Shown: positions 2,419 through 38,204 of the stretch, piece by piece | Position numbering within the stretch: position 1 is the first letter of the stretch | How the letters are laid out: every line of letters starts with the position of its first letter | Origin: a virus | IMG/VR virus record: IMGVR_UViG_3300017989_000215 | Coordinates: 1 to 39,379 of that record | Direction: 5' to 3' (one strand) | DNA: 39,379 nt | Notes under the pieces: model-generated | Seen by the model: only the letters and a program-made list of their open reading frames with translations | The model's database searches: none | Told to the model about the DNA's origin: nothing | Program-made: the position numbers and the translations under genes

Positions 2419-5400
2419 TTAAGTAGCTATTAAAAATCCACCAATCCAAGTATGGGTAGCTCCAACACCTACTGTTTTGGTTCCCTGCTCAACTATGATA
2501 GCACAGTTAAACTGGGCAGTATCACCAGCAGACATCCTCGCAAATACCGTATAAAACAACGTTTGCTCATCATTATAAACTAAGGCAGGGTTAATCAATT
2601 GATAAGTTTTAGATGTTGTCACTATATTTAATGGATCAGTATATACATAAATATAAACAGGCGGATCTGGAGGCGGCTCTTGAAGGTTAGTAAGCAAAAT
2701 ACTTAACGTAAAATTATATAATCCAGTTATAGGTGCTGTAAATACTGCATTAGATCCAGCTCCGTTTCCAGGATAAAAATCACCACCAGAATCATACTCT
2801 TCTACCATTGAGATATTAGCACCAAGCCAATACGTACTACCATCTCCAGTGACATTAGCTCTATTACTTGCCTGATACGCCCTAAACGCAGATCTTGGAA
2901 GAGCATCTGATGTAACTGTTCCAAGCTGCCCATCTGAATTAACGTAAACTAGCGAACCTGTTCCTATATTTGTTCCATAAGTAGCTGCAACAAAAAGCTT
3001 ATTTTGTTCAAAATTACCAGTTCCGGTTGTACCTATCCTTATCGTATTATTGTCACCAACAACTCCATCATTAGATATTAAAACATTATTAGATTCCGAC
3101 GAAGCGAGATCGAAACCACCATTAATAAGAGTATTGTAACTTCCTGTTGTTGGACCTCCATAGTTATCGATGCCTATACCTACATTTCTAGTACCAGATG
3201 TAAGTCTGCCTCTATACCCTACAAGTGTATTACTTCCTCCTGTTGTTATTGAGGCCCCAGAGTTATGTCCAACTAAAGCATTAAGATCTCCAGATGTTAT
3301 TAAAGATCCAGTTCCGTATCCAACAGCTGTATTATAACCTCCAGTACTTAATTGCAATGATCCTGCTCCAACAGAAACACTAAAATCAGCAGCGCCAGAT
3401 CCAGCACCCAATGCAACACTACGACCATTTAAAGGACCACTTAAAAAGTTACCTCCCTGCATTGTTATTTGACCAGCATAATTCCATGCAATTGGATTGG
3501 CTAAGCTAACCGTAGTAGTCGGTCCAGTTGGACTACTGACTACGATATTATCTCCACCGCTTATAGTGGTTATTCCTCCTCCTCCACCACCAGTATTAGT
3601 GATAGTTATACTGTTAGCACCAGGCGTAATAGAAATGCCAGATCCGGCAGTCAAAGAAGCCCACGCAGGCGCTCCAGTACTAGATCCAATTAATACTTGA
3701 CCATCAGTGCCTTCACTAGAACTAAACAGTCCAGCCGCAGAGCTCTGTACAACGCCGCGACCTAAACCAGAAACAGTCAACGCTGTTCCTACTGTCGTAG
3801 CCCCTGTAGACGCCAATGTACTACCAGCTGTAATAGACGTTCCTGAACTTATAGATGTACCAGCTGTTACAGTTGTTCCAGCAGAAACAGACCCTGCCGT
3901 TGATGACACATTTCCAGAAATAGACGTGATATTACCTGTAGACGATATCGTAGTACCTGCTGTAACCGAAGTTCCCGCCGCTAGAGTTGTACCAGCTGTA
4001 ACCGAACCAGTTAAAATTATACTTGGGTCTAAGTTTATACTAACCTCACTAGCTCCACTTGCTACAGTTCCTATGTTAGTGCCACCATGCAATGTTATTG
4101 CATTAGCTCCAGAAATAGTCGCTGTTCCACTATCAGTAGGGTTAGTTAATAAACCACCTCCACCACCACCGGATACCTTAAATGATGGCAAAACACCAGG
4201 ACCGTTAGACGTTAATACATAGCCCGATGTCCCTGTACTTACTGAACCAAGCTGACCATTACTATCAACTATAGCAACTTCTATTCCACCAACAGGAGTT
4301 ACTCCATAGATACCAGCTATAAACGCGCGATTCTGCTGTTTATCTCCAGAGCCATCTATACCTATACGTATAGTATTAGACTCACTTGCACCGTCATTAC
4401 TAATTAAAATATTACTGCTACTTGTTGTTCCAAGTGATGCACCAGCACCATAACCAGTTCCGTCAGCGTTAGAGGCTGAGGAACATCCTATTGCCGTGTT
4501 ATAAGAGCCTGTTGTTACGAATACACCTGTTGTCTTACCAATAAAAGTGTTATAAACCGCTGAAGTTAACGAGCCCCCAGTAGAAACACCCCATAAATTG
4601 TTAGCACTTCCTGTTGTTAAGTTACCGCCAGCGTCACTTCCCATACAAACATTACGGGTTCCTGAAGTTAAAGCGTCTAGCGATGATTGACCTAGACCTA
4701 AGTTAAAATCTCCTGTTAATGTAAAATTACCCGAACCAGGTCCTAAAAATAAATTATCACTACCATAGCTATGTAATAAACGCGATGAATTTTGTATTAT
4801 CTGACCATCTGTAGCCGTTGTCGTCGGTAAGTTAAGACTACCTGAGCTTATGTCCACATCTCCAGTTGTTACAGTCACTCCTGTGCCAGCTGTTACTGTT
4901 GTAGCCGCGTTTAAAAAACCAGCTAAAGTAACATCATCATCCAAATTTACAGTTACAGTAGGACCAGTAGGGTCAACCGTTGTTATATTAGTTCCACCAT
5001 CTACCTGAGATACACCACTCGAACCACCACTTGCAGATATTGTAATCTGACCCGGAACACTGCTGTCATCTATCGCTATATTAGAACCAGCAGTTAAATT
5101 AGCCCAAGCAATAGTTCCAGCACCATCAGTTATCAATAACTGACCAACTGTTCCATCACTAGAACTAAACAATCCAGCCGCTGAACTCTGAACAACCCCA
5201 TTAGATAAACTAGAAACAGTCAGATCATTACCAACAGTAACGTCATTACCAACAGTAATATCACCTAACGTAACATTAATATCTCCTATATCTACCTCAA
5301 TGTTACCACCAGTTGTCGTAATATCCGCAGCCGCTGTAATCTCATTTCCTGCAGTTATAGATCCTAACGTAGCCGTTATGTCTCCAGTATCTACCTCGAG

Positions 5401-6129
5401 GTTGCCTCCAGTTGTCGTAATATCTCCAACTGACGTAATCGTTCCAGAAAGAGAAATACTGTTGTCTAGGCTAACGGTAACCTCATGAGCTGCTGAAGCC
5501 GCCGTGTTAATGTTTAAACCACCTAATACATCTATAGTTCCAGTAGCTGAAACAGTCGCTGTACCACTGTCAGTTGGCATAGAGGTCAATCCTCCACCGC
5601 CTCCTCCTCCAGTAGCCTGCAAATCAAGAGTTCCAGGACCTGGGTTAAACACCACAGAACCGTCAGCAGATGTAAGCGTATACCAGGCAGGCGCCCCAGA
5701 TGTATTGCCAACCAAAACCTGACCATCAGTGCCAGCGCTCGTAGAAACCAAACCCGAAACATTAGTCTGTAATACACCCTTACCTAAAGATGAAATAGTT
5801 AAACTACCAGCCAAAGTAACACTGTCATCCAAATTAACTGTTACCGTAGGACCAGTAGGGTTAACAGTAGTTATATTAGTTCCACCATTAACCTGAATTA
5901 TAGAACCAACTCCACCTCCAGTTATAAGAGTCCAAGTCGCAACGTGAGCCTCCTTATCTGTCAACATCCAAATATTTTCAGTGCCCGACTCTAACCACAA
6001 ATGACCTATATCAAACTCTCTATAATCAGTAGTCAAAGGAGCTCTTTCATACGACGATAAATCAGGGGGCGCCACCGCATTGACACCCCGATAGTTTAAA
6101 ACTCCTTGTCCCGTAAACTTCTTTGTCAT
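2419..6129 (-). CDS. Giant tail fibre with C-terminal C1q/TNF-like domain
   Basis: The 1236-residue product is a low-complexity Gly/Thr/Ser/Val beta-rich fibre. Residues about 20-75 (ERAPLTTDYREFDIGHLWL, ending in TWTLITGGG) resemble the N-terminus of the fibre encoded at 11163-13424 and probably attach it to the virion. The body has repeated VTAGTTISSTGNI-like and TTGSYNTAIG-like units, the latter like head repeats of trimeric autotransporters. The last about 156 residues (from AFRAYQASN) show a C1q/TNF-type pattern (YDSGGDFYP, FTAPITGLYNF, closing WIGGFLIAT), a trimeric receptor- or sugar-binding fold in that family. ATG 6129 overlaps the upstream stop (TGATG); an in-frame TTG one codon earlier is ignored. 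Inferred role: host recognition. Confidence 0.85.
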   Translation of the reverse strand: MTKKFTGQGVLNYRGVNAVAPPDLSSYERAPLTTDYREFDIGHLWLESGTENIWMLTDKEAHVATWTLITGGGVGSIIQVNGGTNITTVNPTGPTVTVNLDDSVTLAGSLTISSLGKGVLQTNVSGLVSTSAGTDGQVLVGNTSGAPAWYTLTSADGSVVFNPGPGTLDLQATGGGGGGGLTSMPTDSGTATVSATGTIDVLGGLNINTAASAAHEVTVSLDNSISLSGTITSVGDITTTGGNLEVDTGDITATLGSITAGNEITAAADITTTGGNIEVDIGDINVTLGDITVGNDVTVGNDLTVSSLSNGVVQSSAAGLFSSSDGTVGQLLITDGAGTIAWANLTAGSNIAIDDSSVPGQITISASGGSSGVSQVDGGTNITTVDPTGPTVTVNLDDDVTLAGFLNAATTVTAGTGVTVTTGDVDISSGSLNLPTTTATDGQIIQNSSRLLHSYGSDNLFLGPGSGNFTLTGDFNLGLGQSSLDALTSGTRNVCMGSDAGGNLTTGSANNLWGVSTGGSLTSAVYNTFIGKTTGVFVTTGSYNTAIGCSSASNADGTGYGAGASLGTTSSSNILISNDGASESNTIRIGIDGSGDKQQNRAFIAGIYGVTPVGGIEVAIVDSNGQLGSVSTGTSGYVLTSNGPGVLPSFKVSGGGGGGLLTNPTDSGTATISGANAITLHGGTNIGTVASGASEVSINLDPSIILTGSVTAGTTLAAGTSVTAGTTISSTGNITSISGNVSSTAGSVSAGTTVTAGTSISSGTSITAGSTLASTGATTVGTALTVSGLGRGVVQSSAAGLFSSSEGTDGQVLIGSSTGAPAWASLTAGSGISITPGANSITITNTGGGGGGITTISGGDNIVVSSPTGPTTTVSLANPIAWNYAGQITMQGGNFLSGPLNGRSVALGAGSGAADFSVSVGAGSLQLSTGGYNTAVGYGTGSLITSGDLNALVGHNSGASITTGGSNTLVGYRGRLTSGTRNVGIGIDNYGGPTTGSYNTLINGGFDLASSESNNVLISNDGVVGDNNTIRIGTTGTGNFEQNKLFVAATYGTNIGTGSLVYVNSDGQLGTVTSDALPRSAFRAYQASNRANVTGDGSTYWLGANISMVEEYDSGGDFYPGNGAGSNAVFTAPITGLYNFTLSILLTNLQEPPPDPPVYIYVYTDPLNIVTTSKTYQLINPALVYNDEQTLFYTVFARMSAGDTAQFNCAIIVEQGTKTVGVGATHTWIGGFLIAT

Positions 6130-9100
6130 CAAAAACCCTTTCCTTTTAAGATAGCTTCTAAGCTTTCAAGGCGATCTTCAAGACTGGATATTTTTTTTGA
6201 CTGCTTAATAAGCTCATTTAATAATAACTGAGGAAGATCATGATATTTAACGTTATAAGGCAACCCTTCATCATCCAAATTAACCAACAAAGGCATGTGC
6301 TCCATAACCTCTTCAGCTATCAAACCATACTGCCTACGCTTAGAAAGATCGTTCTTATAGTTAAATACAACAGGTCTTAAATCCAAAATAGAAGAACTAT
6401 ACGAATCCATATCGTAAATATTCTCTTTAAACCTTTTAGATGATGTAGTTGTTCCAAATAGTCCAGTATTATCAACTAATACAGCCGCATTAGTACCACC
6501 TATTGATTTACCATAAACAGGTAAAGATTGAATCGTTCCTGTACCTTTAGGTGTAATAACTATATCAATATTAGCATCTGTACCATCAGCAGCTAAAGTA
6601 GTACCAGTAAGCGTTAACCCAGCTGCTGCAACATTAGTATCAAACGTTGTTGCATTCATAGTTGTTACTGTAGGTGTTGAACTCCAAGAAGCGTCAGCTC
6701 CAGTGGTTCCTATTAGAACTTCCCCTGTAGATCCAACTGCAGTAGCTGTTATAGCTCCAGTTCCAGAACCTAAAAGAACTCCATGGTCAGTTAATGTAGC
6801 AGCCCCAGTACCACCGTTAGCAACCCCTAGTGAAGCCACTGAACCAAGTTGACCATTAGAATCAACATAGGCTACATTTAATGTGCCACCTGGTGTTACT
6901 CCATAAATACCAGCAATATAGCAAGCATTATGATTAGTAGAATTACCAATTCTTATTTTTCCAGATTCTGCAGCTACACCTTCATGGCAAAGACATATAT
7001 TATAACTCTCAGAATCAGTATAAAGATATCCAGCTGCATATGTATTAGCTCGTCCCAAGGCTAAATTATGAGACCCATGCAATAATTGACCTAAAGTATT
7101 ATTTCCTAGGGCAGCGTTGTGATCAGAATCAATTAATTCAAATAGCGCAGACTGGCCAATCGCGGTATTGTACGACCCAGACGTCAAATCCGGCAATGTT
7201 TGCGATCCTTGCCCATTGTTGGCCTGACCAGATGTTACAGATTTTAAGCATTGATATCCGAGCCCCAAATTATTATTTCCAGTTAATGTAAAATTACCCG
7301 CTTCTTTGCCTAAAAAAACACTGTTAGTTCCATATGCATGAAGATACCTGCTAGCATTTATGGTTATCTGACCATCAGTAGCCGTTGTAGTAGGTAAATT
7401 AATACTTCCAGAACTTACATCTACATCTCCTGTGGTGACTGTTACTCCAGTGCCAGCTGTTACAGAACCAGTTGTAGTCAAAGATGTCACTGTAGGTGTC
7501 AATGTTGAACCAAGCTGACCATTACTATCTGTAACAACAAGTCCATCATTGCCTCCTGTAGGTGTTACTCCATAAATACCAGCGATATAGGTAGTGTCTT
7601 GTTGTCCATTACCAGTTCCCTGTGTTCCAATATGTATAGTGTTTGACTCTGAAACCGTACCAGTATTAGCGATACATACGTTAGAAGACTCTGATGACGT
7701 ATAACTATATCCTGAAGCTTGGCCAATACACGTATTATAAGATCCAGTACTAACGCCATTAGAAAAAGTTGCATTTCCGATAGTCGTATTATACTCACCA
7801 GTCGATATATTCGCTCCAGAACTAGTTCCGATACAAACATTTCTAGATCCTGATGTTAAACCATTTAATGTATTATAACCAAATCCAAAATTATATTTCG
7901 CTGTTCCAGGTGTTAGCGTGAAGTTACCCGAAGAATTTCCTATAAAAACATTATAGTCAGCTGCTAATCCATAAGAATGAATAAGTCTAGTTCCATTTTG
8001 AATTATCTGACCATCAGCTGATGTAGTAGTCGGTAACTTTAAACTTCCAGAACTTACATCTACATCTCCGGTAGTTACGGTCACTCCTGTGCCAGATGTT
8101 ACAGAACCAGAAAATGAAGGACTTCCTGTCCATGTTGGGTCAGCTCCCGTTGAGCCCATTAAAGTCTCACCTGTCGCGCCAACCGCTAATGATCCTATAG
8201 CAACACCTGTTCCATTGCCTAAAAGCAAAGCATGATCTGTTGTCGTCTTACCCCATTCATCAATAGTTTCTAGCGCAGCCTGAACAGTAGTATCAGCAGA
8301 ATCCAGAATACCATCAAAATTAGTTACATTTGTTACCACTAACGAAGCTTGATTTGTTCCACCTAACGACGAGCCAGTTGTTAAAGTTTCCTTAGAGATA
8401 ACTACATCTATTATAGAATCAGTACTCTTTTGGTAAATTATATATCCAAGCCTTGAATTCTCTAGCTTTGCAACCTCATTTGTCGCTACAGCAGTAGTCC
8501 CATTAGATATGGCAGCATCTGCAGCAGCTAAATTACTATACTGTGATGTGTCTAAAACAGCTCCATAAACAGGAATAGATGAATTAAGATTATCCTTAGA
8601 AACATAAAGAGTATAAACACCATATTTATTGGCATCTAATACAGTAGCCGTACCAGCATTATTATAATAACCAGTAAATGTATCATTATAATTTTGCCTT
8701 ACCCATTTACCCGATGCGTCTGTATGCATCTTAACAAAATCAACTGCCACGCCCGCACTATCAGGAATAGTTGTATACAACCCATGATCACTTAACTCAT
8801 CAGTACCAACTATTTCTATTTTTTGAGTACCATTAAGAGTTATATTAGCTCCACCAGAGTGATTTTCTATTATACAGCCTATAGTATTATGAGCATATAT
8901 AGATACAGCAACAGGAAAATCATAAGGATGGTTCTCTTTAACTGTAACCTGATTATTAGTAGGTAAAGTGCTATCACGCATACACTGAAATAACGGAATA
9001 TAATCCTGGAATGTAGCTAGATCAAAAGAAGTTGTCTTACCTATAGTTCCAGTATCGTCGATATAAATTAAATACGTATTACCAGCTGTTAACCCACTTA

Positions 9101-10103
9101 CTGTTTGACCTCCAGCCCATGTTACAGGTACACCTTTTATGTAACCAGTCCCACCAACTAGAAGCTCAAAATCACCTAAAACAGTATCATCAAAATATGG
9201 ACCCGCAGCAGACCAAGACTCAAACCCTGTATCACTTTGCAACACAGCATAAGTATCTACAGTTACTGCTCCTGCAACATCAGTTACATCAAGATAAGTA
9301 GACGATACACTCAGAACTCCACTAGGAGCCGGTGCCTGAAACGTAGGCGCTGTTCCCGCTCCATTTGCTGTTAATAAATACCCAGATATAGCCGCTCCTG
9401 TTACAACTCCTATCGTATCTGCCGCTGATGCTACAAGTACATCACCTATAGCAACAGAATCTGGATACGTAGAAGCAGTCCATGTTGGATAATTAGCACT
9501 AACACCCATCAACAATTTTCCGCTATCTCCAACAGCAATAGGAGAAAGAGAAGCTGCTCCTGCACCAGAAAGCAAAGCAAAAGGTGTGTGCATAGCTGCA
9601 CCTGTTCCACCATTAGGAACATCTAAGGCAGCTCCAAGGCTTAAGTCGTTTATAACAACCTTCCCTGTACCTTTGGCGGTTATGTTTATGTCTATGTCGG
9701 CATCGGTTCCATTCGCTACAATACTATTTCCAGACATTGCAAGACCAGTAGCAGCTACCCTAGTCTGAAAAATATTAGCGTTAATCGTCCCCAAAGTAAT
9801 AACATCGTCTAAATTTATTGTTACAGTACTACCTGCACTCGTTGTACCTATATTGGTACCACCAGCAACAGTTAAAACATTTAAAGCTGGAATAGCAGAG
9901 TTAGCATCGTCCGTTAAGTATGAAGTTGCTAACGCTCCACCTAAGTTTATAGTTAACGTATTACCCGCTCCAGATGTAGTTATAGTTCCATCACCTATTA
10001 TATTTATATTACCAGCACCATCAGGACTTAACGCCCCACCAGCATCTCCAGTAATAGTAGTGAGTAAGCTATTAGAAAAAAAAACCCTAGAAAGTTGTGA
10101 CAT
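6129..10103 (-). CDS. Giant tail fibre with S74 intramolecular chaperone domain
   Basis: The 1324 residues comprise a beta-rich repetitive stalk and, from about residue 1219, a peptidase S74 chaperone: TSSKRFKENIYDM, LDLRPVVFNYK, YGLIAEEV and a terminal coiled coil (QSKKISSLEDRLESLEAIL). In endosialidase-type fibres this domain trimerises the fibre and then cleaves itself off at the serine of the S-x-R/K-F-K motif; here the serine pair just before KRFKEN is present. A non-repetitive region around residues 255-560 (FDLATFQDYIPLFQ, YNDTFTGYYNN) may hold an enzymatic or binding head. GGAGG lies seven bases before the ATG. Modules with VTTGDVDVSSGS and NGQLGS are shared with the neighbouring fibre. 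Confidence 0.88.
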   Translation of the reverse strand: MSQLSRVFFSNSLLTTITGDAGGALSPDGAGNINIIGDGTITTSGAGNTLTINLGGALATSYLTDDANSAIPALNVLTVAGGTNIGTTSAGSTVTINLDDVITLGTINANIFQTRVAATGLAMSGNSIVANGTDADIDINITAKGTGKVVINDLSLGAALDVPNGGTGAAMHTPFALLSGAGAASLSPIAVGDSGKLLMGVSANYPTWTASTYPDSVAIGDVLVASAADTIGVVTGAAISGYLLTANGAGTAPTFQAPAPSGVLSVSSTYLDVTDVAGAVTVDTYAVLQSDTGFESWSAAGPYFDDTVLGDFELLVGGTGYIKGVPVTWAGGQTVSGLTAGNTYLIYIDDTGTIGKTTSFDLATFQDYIPLFQCMRDSTLPTNNQVTVKENHPYDFPVAVSIYAHNTIGCIIENHSGGANITLNGTQKIEIVGTDELSDHGLYTTIPDSAGVAVDFVKMHTDASGKWVRQNYNDTFTGYYNNAGTATVLDANKYGVYTLYVSKDNLNSSIPVYGAVLDTSQYSNLAAADAAISNGTTAVATNEVAKLENSRLGYIIYQKSTDSIIDVVISKETLTTGSSLGGTNQASLVVTNVTNFDGILDSADTTVQAALETIDEWGKTTTDHALLLGNGTGVAIGSLAVGATGETLMGSTGADPTWTGSPSFSGSVTSGTGVTVTTGDVDVSSGSLKLPTTTSADGQIIQNGTRLIHSYGLAADYNVFIGNSSGNFTLTPGTAKYNFGFGYNTLNGLTSGSRNVCIGTSSGANISTGEYNTTIGNATFSNGVSTGSYNTCIGQASGYSYTSSESSNVCIANTGTVSESNTIHIGTQGTGNGQQDTTYIAGIYGVTPTGGNDGLVVTDSNGQLGSTLTPTVTSLTTTGSVTAGTGVTVTTGDVDVSSGSINLPTTTATDGQITINASRYLHAYGTNSVFLGKEAGNFTLTGNNNLGLGYQCLKSVTSGQANNGQGSQTLPDLTSGSYNTAIGQSALFELIDSDHNAALGNNTLGQLLHGSHNLALGRANTYAAGYLYTDSESYNICLCHEGVAAESGKIRIGNSTNHNACYIAGIYGVTPGGTLNVAYVDSNGQLGSVASLGVANGGTGAATLTDHGVLLGSGTGAITATAVGSTGEVLIGTTGADASWSSTPTVTTMNATTFDTNVAAAGLTLTGTTLAADGTDANIDIVITPKGTGTIQSLPVYGKSIGGTNAAVLVDNTGLFGTTTSSKRFKENIYDMDSYSSSILDLRPVVFNYKNDLSKRRQYGLIAEEVMEHMPLLVNLDDEGLPYNVKYHDLPQLLLNELIKQSKKISSLEDRLESLEAILKGKGF

Positions 10104-24369: not shown

Positions 24370-26061
24370 TTACTTACCTAAATTTTGAGCCCTTTGAAGT
24401 AACTTAAAGAAAGCATCAATATTCTCTTCATTCTCGTCTAGCTTCTGCTTGGCTATCATCGCCGCTGTACCCAACGCAGAACCAACACCCAACGCAACAC
24501 CTCCAAGTCCTATTCCAGCCATCTTGGTCGCATCCCAAGCGTTTTCAAAAAAAGTAGGACCAGACGGAACATGTGACGCTTTTGGTGTTGGCCTAGGAGC
24601 AGGAGCAGGAGTAAATTCTGGAACATTAACATGAGGAGATGAAGCTGGAACGAATGTAGGCGTAACTCGTGGTACCATACGAGGTCTATCTTGGCTCTTA
24701 GGTATACTTGCGTTAGACACATCAACAGGAACTTCATTGGTCTGTGTATTATCAGGAATAGGCTCAGGACCCGTTGAAGTAGTATCTGTTTTTTCTTCAG
24801 TGACTATCGGCTCGACAACAATATCACCCAATGTCTCACAAGGCCCCTGATCAGTTACAGGTGTCGAGGACACAGGTGCCGCTGACTCTTGAGTCGCTGA
24901 CTCTTGAGCCGAAGACAAAACAGCTGCAGCAGTAACCGTTTCAGTTGCATCTAAATTCTTATTAACCTGCTTAATTGTTTCTTCTATAGATGTATTTGTT
25001 GCTATATGCTCAGCCTTCTTTTTAACTTTACTAACTAAATCGGCTTTGCGGTCAGCCTCAGCTTTGTCGGTCTGCTTTTTATCTTCTTCTGCTTTTCTTT
25101 TAGCTTCTCTGTCTGTTGTTTTATCTTTCCTAGAACGTTCTCTTACAGCAGGAGGAGCAAACTTACCAAGTTCACTTGCAATTTGATCAAGTGGATAACC
25201 ATTTGCCTGCATGACTTCGAACCTTTCACGCTTTTCAGGAGTATCTGCTAAATAAGACTTAATATTTTGCCTCTCTTCATAACTATGTGTATTTTCAAAG
25301 CTATCTGGAAACTGCCTTGCATAAATATTATCTAGCATTTTATCAAGCTTATTATCATGTAGCTCTTTTTCTAGTTTTGCACCTTTTTCAGCAACTTTCC
25401 TTCTAGCCTCTACCCGTCCTTTATGTGTAAGTAATTTAGTAGCGTCAGCTATACCTGTAGCCGCAGCTGCTGCCACAGTAGCCGTAGCTGCGGCTACTAC
25501 CGGAGCAGCTTTAACAATCTCAGGAATAACTTCTGGAGCCTCTAACACTAACTCAACTACAGCATCATAAACATTGTGCATTAAAAATGCAGTACCATTA
25601 CTATCAGCCTGAAAGTAATTATGAACCTTATTTAGAGACAAAATATAAAAACTTATAGGAGGACCTGTAGTCTGGAAGTCAGTTACCGCTTCAATATCAT
25701 AAGACTTTAACTCATGACTCAATATCTTATCCCCAACACTCAACTCTTTTACGCTTATAAAACTATTTTTATTAACACAGAATATTCTTGCCTCTCTAGA
25801 ACAACACAGAATCCCTGATGAGGTTTTTATAATGATTACGTTAATGGATTTAAATTTTAAAAGGCTACTTACCTGAATGTTTCTAAACTCACCATTTTTT
25901 AGGCAAGCTACATTATCAAAAATAGTAAATCTCTCTATAGGCTTAAAACCAGTACTCGAATTTCTGGTAGCTACTAAAGAACCCTTAGGAACACCTGGCT
26001 TAGTATAATTAAATAATACAAGTAGTAAGAATATACATACAGCAGATATCTTTTTCCACAT
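24370..26061 (-). CDS. Exported protein with degenerate Hint (intein/hedgehog-type) domain
   Basis: 563 residues. A signal peptide or anchor (MWKKISAVCIFLLLVLFNY) is followed at residues 22-163 by a Hint-like domain: VPKGSLVATRNSSTGFKPIE, VKELSVGDKILS, FYILSLNKVHNYF and a closing TAFLMHN. The expected catalytic Cys1 is replaced (Gly23) and the block-B histidine is missing (CCSREARIFCV), while the C-terminal His-Asn is kept, so normal self-splicing is unlikely. Then come an Ala/Val stretch, a Lys/Glu-rich coiled region (210-360), a Pro/Thr/Ser linker (370-500) and a Gly-rich hydrophobic segment near the end (MAGIGLGGVALGVGSALGT). Hint domains occur in secreted processing proteins and polymorphic toxins; no toxin domain is recognised here. 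AAAGGAG supports the ATG. Confidence 0.7.
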   Translation of the reverse strand: MWKKISAVCIFLLLVLFNYTKPGVPKGSLVATRNSSTGFKPIERFTIFDNVACLKNGEFRNIQVSSLLKFKSINVIIIKTSSGILCCSREARIFCVNKNSFISVKELSVGDKILSHELKSYDIEAVTDFQTTGPPISFYILSLNKVHNYFQADSNGTAFLMHNVYDAVVELVLEAPEVIPEIVKAAPVVAAATATVAAAAATGIADATKLLTHKGRVEARRKVAEKGAKLEKELHDNKLDKMLDNIYARQFPDSFENTHSYEERQNIKSYLADTPEKRERFEVMQANGYPLDQIASELGKFAPPAVRERSRKDKTTDREAKRKAEEDKKQTDKAEADRKADLVSKVKKKAEHIATNTSIEETIKQVNKNLDATETVTAAAVLSSAQESATQESAAPVSSTPVTDQGPCETLGDIVVEPIVTEEKTDTTSTGPEPIPDNTQTNEVPVDVSNASIPKSQDRPRMVPRVTPTFVPASSPHVNVPEFTPAPAPRPTPKASHVPSGPTFFENAWDATKMAGIGLGGVALGVGSALGTAAMIAKQKLDENEENIDAFFKLLQRAQNLGK

Positions 26062-31198: not shown

Positions 31199-33757
31199 CT
31201 ATCTAAAAACGTCTGGCAACCCCGAGGACGATCCGTACATTGCCTGGTTGTATAACTCGTCAACATCTTCTTGTGTAGCCTCATCTCGCGACGAAGGAAC
31301 GCTAATTGCAAGCAAACGTGCACAATCTGAAAAATGAGAACTGCTATCATGAAAAGGCTTATCCGCATAAACTTTCCTCTCATTATCATACTCCCTCCTG
31401 TAAGACTCAAGAGCCTTAATTAACTTGTCACAGTTACGCTCATCGATCCAAACCCTAGGAAGCAAAGCACGAACGGCTTCTATGCCGTCTGATATAGGCA
31501 ACTTGGGCGCAACATGGAAATTAATTCCAAGCTGTCTGGCTCTGTCTATTCTCTTTACAGCTCCTCCAGCCCATTCTCTAACCTGTATGTCATGCGGCGC
31601 CCAGTGTTTACCGTATGCATAGTCCTTGCTGTGAATAATTTTAGCATAATGATCTAACCCGAGATCAATATTAGTATACGAATCTATAATCGATACCGAC
31701 TGTCCCTTAATCTGGAACCAGATTATACAAGTTGCATCAGATACCCCCAAATCCCAAGCTGTATGCACCTTAAAAGCAGGATCATAAGGAACGTTGGTTA
31801 TCTGACCTTTAAGCCTAAGATTATTCATTATCTTAGAGTAATATGACCCCTCCACACCCATATCAAAACTACAATAATACTCTTGTTGCACTAAGTCCTC
31901 AGACATCACACCTTCATCTATTTCTCGCTGAATAACTTCTTTTGATATGTGTTTAGTATCATCGCAGGTCAACCTATAAGCAAACCAATACTTAGGATTC
32001 TGTTTAGCTATTTTCCATAAATCATAAAAACTATTGTGCCCAAATGGCGTATTGTGGCTTATGAATCCATTACTAAAAAAAGAATGCGTTTCAGGAATAA
32101 CAAAATCAAAGACTTCTGACTCTGAATTAGTTATTGATACAATCCTTGAATAAAACAACTTCTCTTTAAGCAGTGATTTTAAATATTCATTACCTGGATG
32201 CTTTAAATAAATAGATTCTAAAGTACGCCTTCTAATTTTTGAAGGATTCGTAACGTTAAACTTAAATATATCTGCATTTACCGGGTATACATTGCCCGAC
32301 CCTGATCGTATCTTTTCTGAAATATACCTAGCAACCTTTTGCTTTCTTTTTAGCCTAAACCCTATTTCAGAAAAGAATTTGTAAGCAAAGTAACCCTCAA
32401 TTTCTAAAATAAATATAACGCTTGAAGCTTTTACCTTTTTAGTTGGCGGATTAGTTCTCTTGCTAACCAAAGAAACTATTCCAAAATTAAGAAGCACCAC
32501 CTGAAGATCAAGAACAAACCCCTCACAAGCTGAGGCGAACGTTATATGACCCCTCTTACGTTTTTTATGGTTGGTATTACTATTACCATCACCATCAAAT
32601 AATCCTTGTAGAAACGCAGCCAATTGCTCTTTCGTACATTCAAATAATTTTTCCGGAAAGGTTTTATTCTTAGCGCCGCGTTTAAAACCAAGGTATTCAA
32701 GAAAATTTACTAGGTTGGTAGCCGATAACACATGATGAATACCATCTTTTTGAGTCCTAAAACCAAACTTATTTATAAAACTTACAATCTCGTGGTCTTT
32801 CTTTTTTGTAATAGTTACCTTACTAGAGTCGAAACTTCCATCAGCATGAATTAAGCCTAAAAGATAAAAATAATCTTTATTAAGGTCTAAATCAGATACA
32901 TTAGTTCGTATTCTATAGTCATCATTATTAACGAAATCACTTATATCTAACCCAGATCCAAAAACGTTCTGACCGTACTGAATCGGTAACAAGTCGCCAA
33001 GCTTAAGGTCTCTTGACTTAATCCACTCTGACCCATTCCATAATGGATGGACCTTAGTACACTCAATCTCAAATCCAGAAGCTAACTTTATCTTTAAAGT
33101 CTCTTGCTTTCCTCCATAGTAAAAATCGGTAGCATTGTTAAATCCATTAAGACCAAAAATAGGTGAATTAAACTTGGTGTACTCTTTTCTTGAATCGGAT
33201 AACTTACTAATCCTTTTAAGACCTTTTTCTGAAATTACTAATGTATTTGGCGCAACACATGATATAAATAAACACCACCCTCCGTTTGCTGCCAAGATAG
33301 GTGATATAAACTTGTACGCATTTGGATCCGCCCTTGAGTATTCAGAAAATATAACTGCGTATGGATTAGTTCCAACAAGCCTGTTGTAAGAATCAGAACC
33401 AGCAAGCTGCAATATAGATCCATTAAAAAAAGTTATCTTCATCTCAGAAGAGTTAAGGCTAACTATAAGCTCTTCAGGTATAAAATCTAAAAGCCTCTTT
33501 CCATCTATGGTTATACAATCCCATATTACACGTCGAGCCTGAGAAAATGTGGGAAGAAGGTAGTAGATTATACAGCGCTTACGAAGAGCCTGACGAACAG
33601 CAATGTTAAAAGCAGCAATATCCTTCCCGGCGCGGCGCGGCATCACTGCAATAATCTTCTTCATCCCTTTATTCTCTATAGCATCTACAATGGGTAACTG
33701 ATAGGAACGCGGCTTAAACCTATCAAGCTTTACTATTTTCTTCTCTTTTTCTGCCAA
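31199..33757 (-). CDS. Terminase large subunit carrying an in-frame intein
   Basis: 852 residues. Extein ATPase: Walker A MPRRAGKD (39-46), Walker B-like AVIFSEY (134-140), coupling motif FIS/TPFG, interrupted by an intein at residue 167. C-terminal RNase H-like nuclease: HTAWDLGVSDATCIIWF and later SDCARLLAIS. Removing the intein leaves about 449 residues, a normal size for this family, which cuts concatemers and drives packaging. The start is TTG 33757: GAGGAG sits six bases ahead within the end of the previous gene, and no ATG occurs before residue 32 beyond the Walker A-proximal region. Confidence 0.88.
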   Translation of the reverse strand: MAEKEKKIVKLDRFKPRSYQLPIVDAIENKGMKKIIAVMPRRAGKDIAAFNIAVRQALRKRCIIYYLLPTFSQARRVIWDCITIDGKRLLDFIPEELIVSLNSSEMKITFFNGSILQLAGSDSYNRLVGTNPYAVIFSEYSRADPNAYKFISPILAANGGWCLFISCVAPNTLVISEKGLKRISKLSDSRKEYTKFNSPIFGLNGFNNATDFYYGGKQETLKIKLASGFEIECTKVHPLWNGSEWIKSRDLKLGDLLPIQYGQNVFGSGLDISDFVNNDDYRIRTNVSDLDLNKDYFYLLGLIHADGSFDSSKVTITKKKDHEIVSFINKFGFRTQKDGIHHVLSATNLVNFLEYLGFKRGAKNKTFPEKLFECTKEQLAAFLQGLFDGDGNSNTNHKKRKRGHITFASACEGFVLDLQVVLLNFGIVSLVSKRTNPPTKKVKASSVIFILEIEGYFAYKFFSEIGFRLKRKQKVARYISEKIRSGSGNVYPVNADIFKFNVTNPSKIRRRTLESIYLKHPGNEYLKSLLKEKLFYSRIVSITNSESEVFDFVIPETHSFFSNGFISHNTPFGHNSFYDLWKIAKQNPKYWFAYRLTCDDTKHISKEVIQREIDEGVMSEDLVQQEYYCSFDMGVEGSYYSKIMNNLRLKGQITNVPYDPAFKVHTAWDLGVSDATCIIWFQIKGQSVSIIDSYTNIDLGLDHYAKIIHSKDYAYGKHWAPHDIQVREWAGGAVKRIDRARQLGINFHVAPKLPISDGIEAVRALLPRVWIDERNCDKLIKALESYRREYDNERKVYADKPFHDSSSHFSDCARLLAISVPSSRDEATQEDVDELYNQAMYGSSSGLPDVFR
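32051..33259 (-). mobile_element. Intein with LAGLIDADG homing endonuclease in terminase
   Basis: Residues 167-569 of the terminase (403 aa). Block A CVAPNTLVISEKGLKRISKL begins with Cys167; block B IECTKVHPLW holds the T-x-x-H motif; two LAGLIDADG motifs, LLGLIHADGS (about 299-308) and FLQGLFDGDGN (about 382-392), keep the acidic catalytic residues; block F/G VFDFVIPETHSFF ... ISHN ends with His-Asn568-569 and the next residue is Thr570. All splicing and nuclease signatures look intact, so this is a complete, potentially mobile intein. It sits exactly in the ATPase coupling motif. Confidence 0.93.
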
Positions 33758-33759
33758 AG

Positions 33760-34338
33760 CTACTCCTCTTTATCCTTTTTTAGTCCAAAGTTATCCATAA
33801 CAACAGTAAGATCACCGCTAAATTTATTATCATTTTGTTTTTTAAGCTCTGCTTGCAACTTAAGAAGCTCTTTCCATTCAGGGTCATAAATGGGCATAGC
33901 TGACTTAATCATAGTGACTTCGTACTTTCTCTTTATGGCACCTATTTCTCTTCTTGTACCGATAGTATCGAGCGCATTACGATACGCTATCTTAAGCTTA
34001 TCGCTACGTTTAAGCCATCTATGAAAATCAGAAGCGTGAATACCCACAAGGTTGTAAAACTGGGTTATCTTTAAAGCTTCTTGCTCTTCGTCCTGTGACC
34101 AGTGAATTAGCTTGACGGCTAGACGTTCAATATCAAAAAGTGAGATTGGTTTTTGTCTGAGTGTTGAGGGCTCGAAGAAGTAGTCAAACTGCCCTTTAGT
34201 TGTTGTTTTTGTTGAGTCGTTTTTGGTAGGGTTTATTTTGGAAGGCTTTTTAGTCCTAGAAGTACGCTTTTTCGGCGAGGACTTTGTTACTTTTTTTACG
34301 TTCTTTGTATTCTTGGATTTCTTTATCTCTGTCAACAT
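33760..34338 (-). CDS. Terminase small subunit candidate
   Basis: 192 residues directly before the large subunit gene (two bases apart). The first 50 are Lys/Thr/Ser-rich and disordered (KSSPKKRTSRTKKPSK). The core holds a helix-turn-helix (ITQFYNLVGIHASDFHRWLK) and helical REIGAIKRKYEV, EWKELLKLQAELKKQND, typical for DNA-recognition and oligomerisation parts of small terminases, which pick the phage DNA. GAGAGG precedes the ATG. The first 83 bases overlap the end of the RusA gene. Assignment rests on position, HTH and length. Confidence 0.7.
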   Translation of the reverse strand: MLTEIKKSKNTKNVKKVTKSSPKKRTSRTKKPSKINPTKNDSTKTTTKGQFDYFFEPSTLRQKPISLFDIERLAVKLIHWSQDEEQEALKITQFYNLVGIHASDFHRWLKRSDKLKIAYRNALDTIGTRREIGAIKRKYEVTMIKSAMPIYDPEWKELLKLQAELKKQNDNKFSGDLTVVMDNFGLKKDKEE

Positions 34339-34723
34339 GATATACCTCTCTTTCTATGATTTTAACTTCAGTTCTGGAGTTTATACTATAGTATTTATCA
34401 GCAGATATTGAATAAATAATATTATCATTAAAATAGACTATGCCGGAAAGTATATCAGAAACATACCTCAAAAGAGCATGTATGTTGGGATTAGAAACAT
34501 TCTGTTTACCGATGAGCGGCTCCAGGGTAAGTTGTCTTTTTGGCCTAAAAAAAAAGGTTACATAAAGAGCAAGTGGGCTAGTTAGCTTATCGTGAGGAAA
34601 CTGCCGTTCTGTTTCTATTTTAGCGTTACATCTGCGTTGTTTACTTGACGACCAGAACCTATTTTCACCATCCATTATCAGAGATCCTGGCTCACCTGGT
34701 ATTATGATCTTATAACTACTCAC
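34256..34723 (-). CDS. RusA-like Holliday junction resolvase, catalytic site altered
   Basis: 155 residues from a GTG start with an excellent AAAGGAG site. The RusA fold is visible: an IIPGEPGSL strand, SPLALYVTFFFRPKR, then NPNIHALLRYVSDILSGIVY and FNDNIIYSISADKYYS, ending EVKIIEREV. Active RusA enzymes carry Asp at two positions in a P-D-x-D-N motif and one in a D-D motif; here the first motif reads PNIHAL, so both acids are replaced, while the third (FND) is kept. It may therefore bind junctions without cutting, or be a diverged relative. It heads the packaging operon; its C-terminus overlaps the small terminase gene by 83 bases. Confidence 0.65.
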   Translation of the reverse strand: MSSYKIIIPGEPGSLIMDGENRFWSSSKQRRCNAKIETERQFPHDKLTSPLALYVTFFFRPKRQLTLEPLIGKQNVSNPNIHALLRYVSDILSGIVYFNDNIIYSISADKYYSINSRTEVKIIEREVYHVDRDKEIQEYKERKKSNKVLAEKAYF

Positions 34724-34809: not shown

Positions 34810-36558
34810 TTAAAGCAGTTTGGAATTTAAAATCCTGAGCATGTATGAAACATCTTTGTAGTTGTTATTTAGGCTTGCAACGTCATGTATAATTTTTACT
34901 GAATTTTTAAGATCTATGCAATCACCATTAAAAGTAAATACATTACTTCTTACTTCATCAAAATCCATATACTCTGATAAACCTCCCACAGCAATGCCTT
35001 TAAATCTATTGGTTAGCTTCTGAAGTTTAGTTAAGTTTAAAGAGTCTTCTTGTCTTAATCTGGATGATCTTGCTTTACAGTAAGAGCTTACTCTGCCCAT
35101 ATGGTGAATAGCTTTATTTTTTTTATCTGTGTGAGACTCAATATTAAGAAAGTTGTATTTATCTAGCTTTGGGTAGCTAAGTGGATCGTTTTTAGAAATA
35201 CCCTCAAAGCTAATAATTTCGTTATATATTCTAAAGTCAGGACCTACGCCGCCATTATTATATAGGGCATTACAGGTAGTTAGAAACGCATAAATATTAA
35301 AGAATGAGTCATGCTTTTTTCTGAGGTCATTAAATATCAATTCTTTCATTTCATCAGCATAAGCCGCAAGTCTGGCTTCACCATGAGGAGTTAAGTTAAG
35401 TTCTTTAACGATTTTAGATACTATTTTTGTTCTATACCTTGAAAGACAGTAAAGTGGAAGTTCTGACTTCTCTATAACAGCTTGTTCCTTGTCTAGCATA
35501 GCCAAGGGTTTATATTCTAAATTATTATACCCGTCTACAGTATCTAACACTGACTGGATATCTTCACAAAACCAGTAAGAAAAACTACGGCTATCCCTTA
35601 CATCTTCTGCCGGGTATTCAAAGGTATCAGAAGATGGAACATCTATGCTTATATTCATTTTTTGACCGAAAACTGAATCAAGATATTCTCTTACGGCTGG
35701 AAGGTTGCGGGCAAAACCGTCCTTAGCGGACTGCTTAACCTTTGGATTCTCGTTTAGTTTTATATATACCGTATTACCGTGACATGCAACAAAATCAGCT
35801 TCAGTAAAGACTCTGTACTCTATAGGAGAAAGTGAGGCTGTAATATCATTTACAAAAGTACCCCAAAGGATAATATTTGAACTTGTATTATCTGAGCCAA
35901 CAATCTCCTTGCCGTTAAGCTTATCTACATAATCTTTTGATGTTAAAGAGTTTTTCTTTGTATATCTGTAACCTTCTGACACAAACATAAAGCGATTACA
36001 TCCATCAAACACCTCCTGCAGAAAGCTTGACCAAAAAAAACGGTAATGAAGAACAAAATGGTGGCCATAATACCCAGTATCTACTGGAGCAAGAGATATA
36101 TAAACAGTCTTTTCAGAAATATTACATGAAAGGTACGTAGCTCTTTTAATAATATCTATCGCCATCTGATCGTAGCCGTCTTCTATTTTTAGTAAAAAGA
36201 CATCCCATAAAGACTTTGCTCGTTGTTTAAAATTCATGGGCTTAGCGCTTCCAACGTAAAGCTTATATTCATCTTCTGAGATACTGTGTAAAGACCTGTT
36301 TTTATTGGTTACAAACAGAAACCCATCTATCCCTGGAAAGTTGCTTGATAGTTGCTCTTGCCATAAAGCATTAGAAAAAACAACAGAGTCCTGAAGACGC
36401 TCATGCTCTGGAGACAAGAAAAGCATTATCTTGCGTCTTTGTGCATGTGTGCCACCAAAAGTAGCCTTAAAAAAGATTTGGTAGATATCGTCTCTGGTTG
36501 TTTGTTTAGCGTCAGTTAAAAACTGCTCCCATCTTTTATTTTCAGTAATATTAGACAT
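34810..36558 (-). CDS. Replication-module protein with three DnaA-domain-I-like repeats
   Basis: 582 residues. Three segments about 110 residues apart follow the pattern of the DnaA N-terminal domain: (1) RWEQFLTDAKQTTRDDIYQI with KIMLFLSP, from residue 9; (2) LWDVFLLKIEDGYDQMAIDI with TVYISLAP, from 117; (3) LWGTFVNDITASLSPIEYRV, NTVYIKLN, AVREYLDSVFGQKMNISIDV, from 231. The third is the best match. In DnaA this domain loads helicase and self-associates. No AAA+ or DnaA box-binding domain follows; residues 320-582 are unknown. It lies directly after the Rep-like gene, separated by a terminator, and shares a 12-base element with the origin repeats, so a role in initiation is likely. Confidence 0.55.
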   Translation of the reverse strand: MSNITENKRWEQFLTDAKQTTRDDIYQIFFKATFGGTHAQRRKIMLFLSPEHERLQDSVVFSNALWQEQLSSNFPGIDGFLFVTNKNRSLHSISEDEYKLYVGSAKPMNFKQRAKSLWDVFLLKIEDGYDQMAIDIIKRATYLSCNISEKTVYISLAPVDTGYYGHHFVLHYRFFWSSFLQEVFDGCNRFMFVSEGYRYTKKNSLTSKDYVDKLNGKEIVGSDNTSSNIILWGTFVNDITASLSPIEYRVFTEADFVACHGNTVYIKLNENPKVKQSAKDGFARNLPAVREYLDSVFGQKMNISIDVPSSDTFEYPAEDVRDSRSFSYWFCEDIQSVLDTVDGYNNLEYKPLAMLDKEQAVIEKSELPLYCLSRYRTKIVSKIVKELNLTPHGEARLAAYADEMKELIFNDLRKKHDSFFNIYAFLTTCNALYNNGGVGPDFRIYNEIISFEGISKNDPLSYPKLDKYNFLNIESHTDKKNKAIHHMGRVSSYCKARSSRLRQEDSLNLTKLQKLTNRFKGIAVGGLSEYMDFDEVRSNVFTFNGDCIDLKNSVKIIHDVASLNNNYKDVSYMLRILNSKLL

Positions 36559-36596: not shown

Positions 36597-36642
36597 AAAA
36601 AAGCGAAGCTAGTTTATTTTTTTTCCCTGCTTCGCTTTTTTT
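36597..36642. terminator. Bidirectional rho-independent terminator
   Basis: Arms AAAAAAGCGAAGC (36597-36609) and GCTTCGCTTTTTT (36629-36641): a GC core with A/T flanks usable on both strands. It overlaps the stop of the Rep-like gene at 36641 and separates it from the DnaA-like gene. Confidence 0.88.
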
Positions 36643-38053
36643 ATTTTAACAGCTTTTCGCAAATAGCCAAAATGTCTAGAGTAACAACATGAAGTCCTTC
36701 TGCGAATATAGTCCTGAGTGCAAGCACGGCCATAAGCTTTGCTCTATAAAAACTTGTTCTAGCATCTTCCCACGGATCATCTATACCCTTTGATATCATA
36801 TACCTTATCAATACAGTCCTAAGAGTCAGGTACATCGACGCATGACCAGCTATTAATGCAGTTCCAACTCGGTATATCTCACTTGCTACCTCATCTTTCA
36901 GGCGCGCCATCTTAAGCTGATGGGTCCAAAGATGAAGATGTGGCTTTGTCTTTTCAAGTACAATTCCAAATTCAGTTTGTAGCTCCCTATCTAAACGTTC
37001 AGTGTCAGCTTTTACATGTTCTAGTGTAACAGGACTGTAAGTAAGAATCTTAGCGCATACGTCATCCATAGACCTAATTTCATTTACTTGCTTATACCCT
37101 TTACGGGCTGGTCTATTGTTAAACTGCTTATTAACTTCCCTTTTGTGGTTTCTTGCGATCCCGTTAGCTTCCAAAAAAGAAGTAATTTTTGAATCGTGTT
37201 GGCTATTGCCTATAGTTAAACCAAAGTGGGTTATACCATACATACTCTTTAGACAGTTAACCAAAAAGTGATCAACCTTTAGGTTATTAATGTGCGATAT
37301 TCTGTCGCAGATTACAGTAAATTGCTCAAAGTAGTCATCAAATAAGCTCATGTCAGTTTCTTCGTAAACCTTTAGGGCCTCTAAGAGAACTTCGTTAGAG
37401 TAACCCATAAGTTTTATAATGCCATGTTGAGTTAGACAGAATACTCCTAGGCATTTTGTGAGGCCCCTGAAGTTAATTAGAGCCTTTATGTCCAATTTTG
37501 TCCCATTTTTTACCGAATCAATAAATTCATAGGAATTTTCTACTTTATTGTTCTCTTCTCCGAACATATTTAACCCTAATTGACTCAATATCTGTATAGA
37601 AAGTTTTTTCATATTTAAGTAATTTAAATATTTATAGTTAGGTGTGAAGTTAGTTGTTAATAACTTGTAGATCGATGGAAAGAGCCTTACAAGCCACTTG
37701 ATATTCTTAGCCGCAAATAGTTTTTCAGGGACCATGTAGATACAAGTCTTCCTGTGGCGATAAATTTTCTTAAGCAACCCTAAAGAGACAAGATCTTTTA
37801 TACACTTGTTAGTCCACTCTCTAGTTATGCCAACATTATCAGCTATGTGGGCCTGACTAGAGAATATTCCATTTTGACGTGGAAGCATGCAAAAAATGTA
37901 ATCTAATATGCCGCGCTTGGCATCTGAAAGACCAAAAAGAAGGTGCTTTAAATTTATAGCCGGTATAGAAAACCCAGGCTCACGAAGAAAGTTGTAGTTT
38001 ATCTTATTGTTTCTGTCTAAAACTCTTGATTTATCAATGCATTCTGCTAACAT
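36641..38053 (-). CDS. Replication initiator-like protein, winged helix
   Basis: 470 residues. The N-terminus has a winged-helix domain (about 44-110): DAKRGILDYIFCMLP, SSQAHIADNVGITREWTNKC, IKDLVSLGLLKKIYRHRKTC with a beta wing. The rest is mostly helical and basic (for example HKREVNKQFNNRPARKGYKQ about 300) and matches no family I can name. Directly upstream of its ATG lie tandem 61-bp repeats with iterons, so a plasmid-type Rep acting on them and repressing its own gene is the simplest view. GAGGAT precedes the ATG. Could instead be a transcription regulator. Confidence 0.6.
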   Translation of the reverse strand: MLAECIDKSRVLDRNNKINYNFLREPGFSIPAINLKHLLFGLSDAKRGILDYIFCMLPRQNGIFSSQAHIADNVGITREWTNKCIKDLVSLGLLKKIYRHRKTCIYMVPEKLFAAKNIKWLVRLFPSIYKLLTTNFTPNYKYLNYLNMKKLSIQILSQLGLNMFGEENNKVENSYEFIDSVKNGTKLDIKALINFRGLTKCLGVFCLTQHGIIKLMGYSNEVLLEALKVYEETDMSLFDDYFEQFTVICDRISHINNLKVDHFLVNCLKSMYGITHFGLTIGNSQHDSKITSFLEANGIARNHKREVNKQFNNRPARKGYKQVNEIRSMDDVCAKILTYSPVTLEHVKADTERLDRELQTEFGIVLEKTKPHLHLWTHQLKMARLKDEVASEIYRVGTALIAGHASMYLTLRTVLIRYMISKGIDDPWEDARTSFYRAKLMAVLALRTIFAEGLHVVTLDILAICEKLLK

Positions 38054-38081
38054 TAGATCCTCTTTATAACATAAAATCCTC

Positions 38082-38204
38082 TTTAAAGGGATTTTGAAAT
38101 TCTACTTCGGGGTTTTGAAATTCTCTTTATAAGGTCCTCTTTTTTAAAGGGATTTTGAAATTCTACTTCGGGGTTTTGAAATTCTCTTTATAAGGTCCTC
38201 TTTT
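38082..38204. repeat. 61-bp tandem repeat with iterons, candidate replication origin
   Basis: Two almost identical 61-bp units (starting at 38082 and 38143), each with two copies of TTTTGAAATTCT exactly 21 bp apart (38092, 38113, 38153, 38174), two helical turns, as for iterons bound by Rep dimers or monomers in line. Units also hold ATAAGGTCCTCT (38129, 38190), whose reverse complement recurs at 36583. An AT-rich stretch (38205-38280) follows, suited to strand opening. A weak leftward promoter (TTAAAT 38250-38245, 17 bases, TATAAA 38227-38222) lies beside it, so Rep binding could autoregulate. Confidence 0.7.

Follow-up and report, generated by a model that had tools for sequence, protein, structure and literature searches.

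A viral protein with three diverged DnaA-domain-I-like repeats and a C-terminal module common with the adjacent O-like initiator

The DNA analysed here, referred to as the window, is a virus record of IMG/VR with a length of 39,379 bases, which may be a fragment or otherwise incomplete. The open reading frame that had been pointed out in a preliminary description was found again at the same place, on the minus strand, and encodes a protein of 582 residues, P582. This protein is made up of three repeats (M1, M2, and M3) followed by a further module (the C-module). Its gene is located between that of an O-like replication protein (P470) and that of a RusA-like resolvase, and an array of iteron-like repeats lies just upstream of P470. 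The features of the locus are collected in Table 1.

Table 1. Features of the P582 locus, with positions in the window and the evidence for each.
Feature	Positions	Strand	Evidence
P582, 582 aa, three DnaA-domain-I-like repeats and C-module	34810..36558	-	ORF list, repeats, fold, C-module search
Repeat M1, residues 7-95 (W10, W66)	36274..36540	-	Similarity to M2 (z 5.4) and M3 (z 5.0)
Repeat M2, residues 115-208 (W118, W176)	35935..36216	-	Similarity to M1 (z 5.4) and M3 (z 3.9)
Repeat M3, residues 229-310 (W232, E247)	35629..35874	-	AlphaFold2 model, PDB match, hhalign
C-module of P582, residues 374-455	35194..35439	-	C-module HMM (20.7 bits), hhalign (Prob 91.9)
P470, O-like replication initiator, winged HTH and C-module	36641..38053	-	Weak PHROG O-like and replication-initiation matches, jackhmmer
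C-module of P470, residues 194-275	37229..37474	-	23.1 bits, C-module HMM built without P470
RusA-like resolvase, next gene downstream of P582, syntenic marker	34256..34723	-	Pfam RusA (6e-10), synteny in relatives
Four exact iteron-like 16-mers GGGRTTTTGAAATTCT, candidate origin or operator	38088..38185		Repeat search

P582 has tryptophans at positions 10, 66, 118, 176, 232, and 329. Those at 10, 118, and 232 lead the repeats and are spaced by 108 and 114 residues, in agreement with the Trp-led segments described earlier as starting near residues 9, 117, and 231. For Smith-Waterman comparisons with 500 shuffles, the protein was split into residues 1-114 (M1), 111-228 (M2), 225-325 (M3), and the rest. 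The M1-M2 and M1-M3 alignments score 51 (z 5.4) and 45 (z 5.0), respectively, with 0% of 500 shuffles as high in both cases, and the M2-M3 alignment scores 43 (z 3.9; 0.6% of 500 shuffles as high). The C-terminal rest of the protein shows no comparable similarity to any repeat by the same method. Because the pairwise scores of the repeats exceed those of the shuffles and the C-terminal part is unlike the repeats, the triplication inside P582 is, as judged from these alignments, genuine, its copies having diverged. The true internal duplication put forward in the preliminary description is thus borne out. A fourth repeat at W329 was considered and rejected, since its scores are no better than those of shuffles or decoys.

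The other parts of a DnaA protein were looked for in P582. Neither the AAA+ domain III nor the DNA-binding domain IV of DnaA has a Pfam match in it, and a motif search found no Walker A motif, so that the earlier statement that P582 has no AAA+ domain holds. Pfam and PHROG searches revealed no winged HTH in P582, and PHROG and PDB sequence searches of the protein gave nothing useful.

The fold of the repeats was approached through M3. The full-length, single-sequence AlphaFold2 model of P582 is unusable (pLDDT 35.5). For a second model, the query was M3 itself, and the input alignment contained the three repeats only, with zero DnaA sequences. The resulting model (pLDDT 67, pTM 0.48) shows the order H-H-E-E-H-E, as in DnaA domain I. 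When it is compared with the PDB using Foldseek, the first two ranks are occupied by DnaA domain I of Bacillus subtilis (4tps; probability 1.00, TM 0.63-0.70), and the other matches include tau domain V, DciA, and the N-terminal domains of Escherichia coli and Helicobacter pylori DnaA. At E ≤ 0.001, Foldseek returned no match of M3 in either library (PDB or BFVD); the BFVD matches are weak, the best having an E-value of 8e-3. VIA-align 2 also places 4tps first (Z 9.5, rmsd 2.4, 76 residues), followed by RbfA and other KH-like chains (Z 7 to 8.3), and gives the DciA chains Z values of 6.4-7.0, under the 9.5 of DnaA domain I. From the rankings of these two programs, a KH-like fold of the modelled M3 is well supported and its nearest solved structure is DnaA domain I. 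The predicted fold of M3 is thus probably of the DnaA domain I type. The third copy had been said to match clearly, and it is the clearest of the three. As for M1 and M2, their putative fold is assigned solely via sequence similarity to M3; the fold check suggested earlier came out positive, at the level of the model, for M3.

Sequence comparisons with DnaA itself are less direct. The DnaA_N profile (PF11638) has no match in P582 or in the whole record (Pfam, E ≤ 10), and our own DnaA domain I HMM (133 sequences/loci, filters off) gives no positive score in P582. The preliminary description had named a search of each third with PF11638 as a check on its reading, and no third gives a match in Pfam; judged by this check, that reading would fail. 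Profile-profile comparisons were carried out using hhalign with DnaA sequences that reach the last strand. On its own, M3 gives a 76-column alignment with DnaA domain I, full-length and in register, and few of 500 decoy segments outrank it (top 2.2%). For the profile built from all three repeats the score is 20.6, with an hhalign probability of only 16%, below the usual bar for homology. Column-shuffled versions of this profile have a mean score of 10.3 (sd 2.2, maximum 21.1), and about 1/500 of them reach 20.6. With the version of the DnaA alignment that stops before the last strand, the hhalign probability is 2%. These comparisons are suggestive of a likeness of the repeats to DnaA domain I that is beyond chance but, because the hhalign probability is just 16%, short of proof. 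As the profile test failed, P582 is kept out of the DnaA_N family. The earlier DnaA domain I reading therefore stands for the three modules, their duplication, the lack of an AAA+ domain and, at the level of a model, the fold of M3; it does not stand for a profile match.

The pLDDT of 67, the failed profile match, and the empty Foldseek lists at E ≤ 0.001 would all suit the idea that the repeats adopt a different alpha/beta fold and that their likeness to DnaA is an artefact of a model of moderate confidence. Against this, the order of secondary structures, the top structural match, and the profile-profile score relative to shuffles agree independently, and we consider an artefact quite improbable.

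Residues that may contact partner proteins were then compared. In E. coli DnaA, Trp6 is critical for the dimerization of domain I, and Glu21 and Phe46 for the binding of DnaB (PMC5448010). A tryptophan at the position of Trp6, at the start of helix 1, is kept in M1, M2, and M3. In an ungapped alignment made by eye between M3 and residues Leu5 to Thr37 of E. coli DnaA, Glu247 falls at the position of Glu21. M1 and M2 have no glutamate at this position, and Phe46 is not clearly kept in any repeat. The KH fold is common to DnaA domain I, domain V of DnaX, and the N-terminal domain of DciA, all of which are reported to contact DnaB (PMC9912922).

Another explanation is that the repeats form a DciA- or KH-like binder of single-stranded DNA that aids helicase loading or strand handling and does not descend from DnaA domain I. 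DciA and tau domain V do appear among the Foldseek matches of M3 as KH-like neighbours of the model, RbfA-type KH chains rank high in VIA-align 2, and DNA binding is reported in papers on DciA. However, DnaA domain I tops both structural lists, and both the Trp that opens helix 1 and the profile of the three repeats agree with it. Moreover, DUF721, the family of DciA, is not among the matches of P582 in a Pfam scan at E ≤ 10, Pfam gives no DnaX profile match either, and the domain context of P582 differs from those of DciA and DnaX. We regard such a binder as unlikely, and call P582 DnaA-domain-I-like with regard to its probable fold and, probably, to the way it acts.

The C-module half of P582 had been missed in the preliminary description and is new. 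Related phages were collected through alignments of TerL (up to ~58% identical) and of the portal protein (54-60%). In these relatives, the gene that precedes RusA or TerS codes for a replication protein that is O-like and contains a winged HTH. A jackhmmer search started from P470 assembled about 30 O-like proteins; within P582, the profile derived from them matches nothing but residues 376-455. A C-module HMM was also made from which both P582 and P470 were left out, its alignment holding one sequence twice; the two proteins score far above all of 5,320 decoy ORFs with it, the highest of these reaching 8.3 bits (Table 1). Residues 374-447 of P582 hold the C-module that also occurs in P470 and in about 20 related phages, and that has no Pfam or clear PHROG name. 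In two related phages, L293 and L149, it is encoded by a separate gene right after the winged HTH gene, in the slot held here by P582. Since the module is shared and the gene slot is the same, P582 looks, in terms of sequence, as if three DnaA-I-like repeats had been added to a C-module protein. C-modules in separate ORFs, or in ORFs devoid of a winged HTH, were observed in related phages at L293:1229-1831, L149:5600-6349, and L230:2193-3365. Among the O-like proteins of relatives that were examined, hhalign gave no usable match to a DnaA_N-like domain.

Upstream of P470, the four copies of GGGRTTTTGAAATTCT start at 38088, 38109, 38149, and 38170, with spacings of 21, 40, and 21. They are contained in a 61-bp direct repeat (two copies, 97%). 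At 21 bp, the two copies of a pair are some two turns of the helix apart, a distance also seen in iterons. The 61-bp repeats together with an adjoining 19-bp repeat (38048-38204) overlap the start of the P470 gene. A simple k-mer search upstream of the O-like genes of relatives found no general pattern of iterons; a few loci have short repeats. DnaA boxes were also considered as a candidate feature and discarded, being not enriched (44 observed with ≤1 mismatch vs. 55 expected). Neither a DnaB_C helicase nor a DnaC/IstB-type AAA+ loader was found in the record, which is possibly incomplete. With no helicase or loader of its own found, the phage plausibly needs the helicase of its host.

We propose that P582 acts as an accessory protein in phage replication, recruiting the host helicase to the phage origin in a multivalent way through its DnaA-I-like domains, and give this reading about an even chance of being correct. 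P470 would bind the upstream iterons via its winged HTH, and P582 would join the P470 complex, possibly through the shared C-module. The three domains of P582 would then together bind the host DnaB hexamer. Such a three-point grip on the host helicase is proposed because of the literature on DnaA domain I and DnaB and because the Trp at the position of Trp6 is present in all the repeats. At oriC, several copies of domain I are proposed to engage a single DnaB hexamer, which would raise affinity (PMC6127211); at the phage origin, one P582 chain could take the place of several DnaA protomers as the source of such multivalency. A more specific version is advanced tentatively, as falling somewhat short of an even chance: three DnaA-I-like domains carried on the interaction module of an O-type initiator would make a single-chain trivalent helicase recruiter replacing the domain I cluster of the DnaA oligomer, and the tail module would be an undescribed phage-initiator domain. 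The recruiter reading is weakened by its dependence on a single M3 model of moderate confidence and by repeats without homologues, and the fact that related phages manage without P582 counts against it, as do the missing DnaA_N profile match, the lack of the Glu in M1 and M2 and of a clear Phe46 in any repeat, and the high Z values of RbfA and other KH-like chains.

Domain I mimics could also serve to take over the host, by binding host DnaA, DiaA/HobA-like regulators or DnaB and thereby blocking host initiation. There is a precedent in the YfdR protein of an E. coli prophage, whose reported binding to domain I is made via Phe46, in competition with DiaA and DnaB (PMC5448010), and a trivalent mimic would make an effective decoy. 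A role in phage replication better fits the sharing of the C-module with an initiator and the position in the replication module, and we hold the chances of a decoy to be low. The sharing of the C-module with the adjacent O-like initiator, the locus, and the upstream iterons make recruitment of the helicase to the phage origin the preferred reading, ahead of a sequestering of host DnaA.

Comparison with known systems shows what is particular to P582. The M3 model has the secondary structure order of DnaA domain I (PF11638; B. subtilis 4TPS, E. coli 2E0G) and superposes on it, and the Trp at the start of helix 1 is present in all three repeats. In contrast with DnaA, P582 carries three copies in one chain, has neither the AAA+ domain nor domain IV, and falls below every DnaA_N threshold. 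The closest phage parallel is SECTIM467_4 of Brevibacillus phage SecTim467, a phage initiator with a DnaA domain I (HTH_36 at 62-110 and DnaA_N at 273-330), whose BFVD model matches M3 with a TMq of 0.62. There, a single copy with a clear Pfam match is part of the initiator itself, whereas the copies in P582 are three and diverged, no winged HTH was detected in it, and its C-terminal module is a different one. Finally, P582 adjoins a Lambda O-type initiator of the P470 family and has the C-module in common with such initiators in this phage group, but unlike them it has no winged HTH match.

Phage initiators with a single DnaA domain I are thus already known. Within a partial coverage of the literature, no description of a three-copy DnaA-domain-I protein was found, in line with what had been stated previously. 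A profile of the repeats detects no second P582-type copy in 228 loci of related phages, and searches of IMG/VR, phages, plasmids, GTDB genomes, and PDB sequences gave no close relatives of the protein, making P582 a singleton on present sequence data. Among 150 sampled Pseudomonadota genomes, nearly all have one DnaA_N match per genome; in the genomes with two matches and both places listed, these are on different contigs. If the proposed role is correct, a natural three-domain chain would allow the idea of multiple domain I copies at oriC to be tested in cis, through changes in copy number and mutation of single copies, and phages would have a further route to the host helicase, besides lambda P and DnaC-like loaders. 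The recurrence of the C-module in about 20 related phages offers a handle on their replication.

Other features of the record were observed. The large terminase gene (31199-33757, minus strand) contains an intein at about 32051-33259 that matches Pfam Intein_splicing and, for its LAGLIDADG domain, LAGLIDADG_3; it is flanked by ...GGWCLFIS before and TPFGH... after; the TerL ORFs of relatives L167 and L170 have an intein-like insertion at a different site. A 563-aa protein (24370-26061, minus strand) is weakly similar to Hint domains in its N-terminal part (PT-HINT, E 0.01). Two separate ORFs on the plus strand (87-416 and 752-1498) both match the ERF single-strand annealing family and are a possible paralogous pair. 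Two tail-type proteins, both very long and repetitive, are encoded at 2419-10103 (minus strand); a Peptidase_S74 intramolecular chaperone forms the C-terminus of the second.
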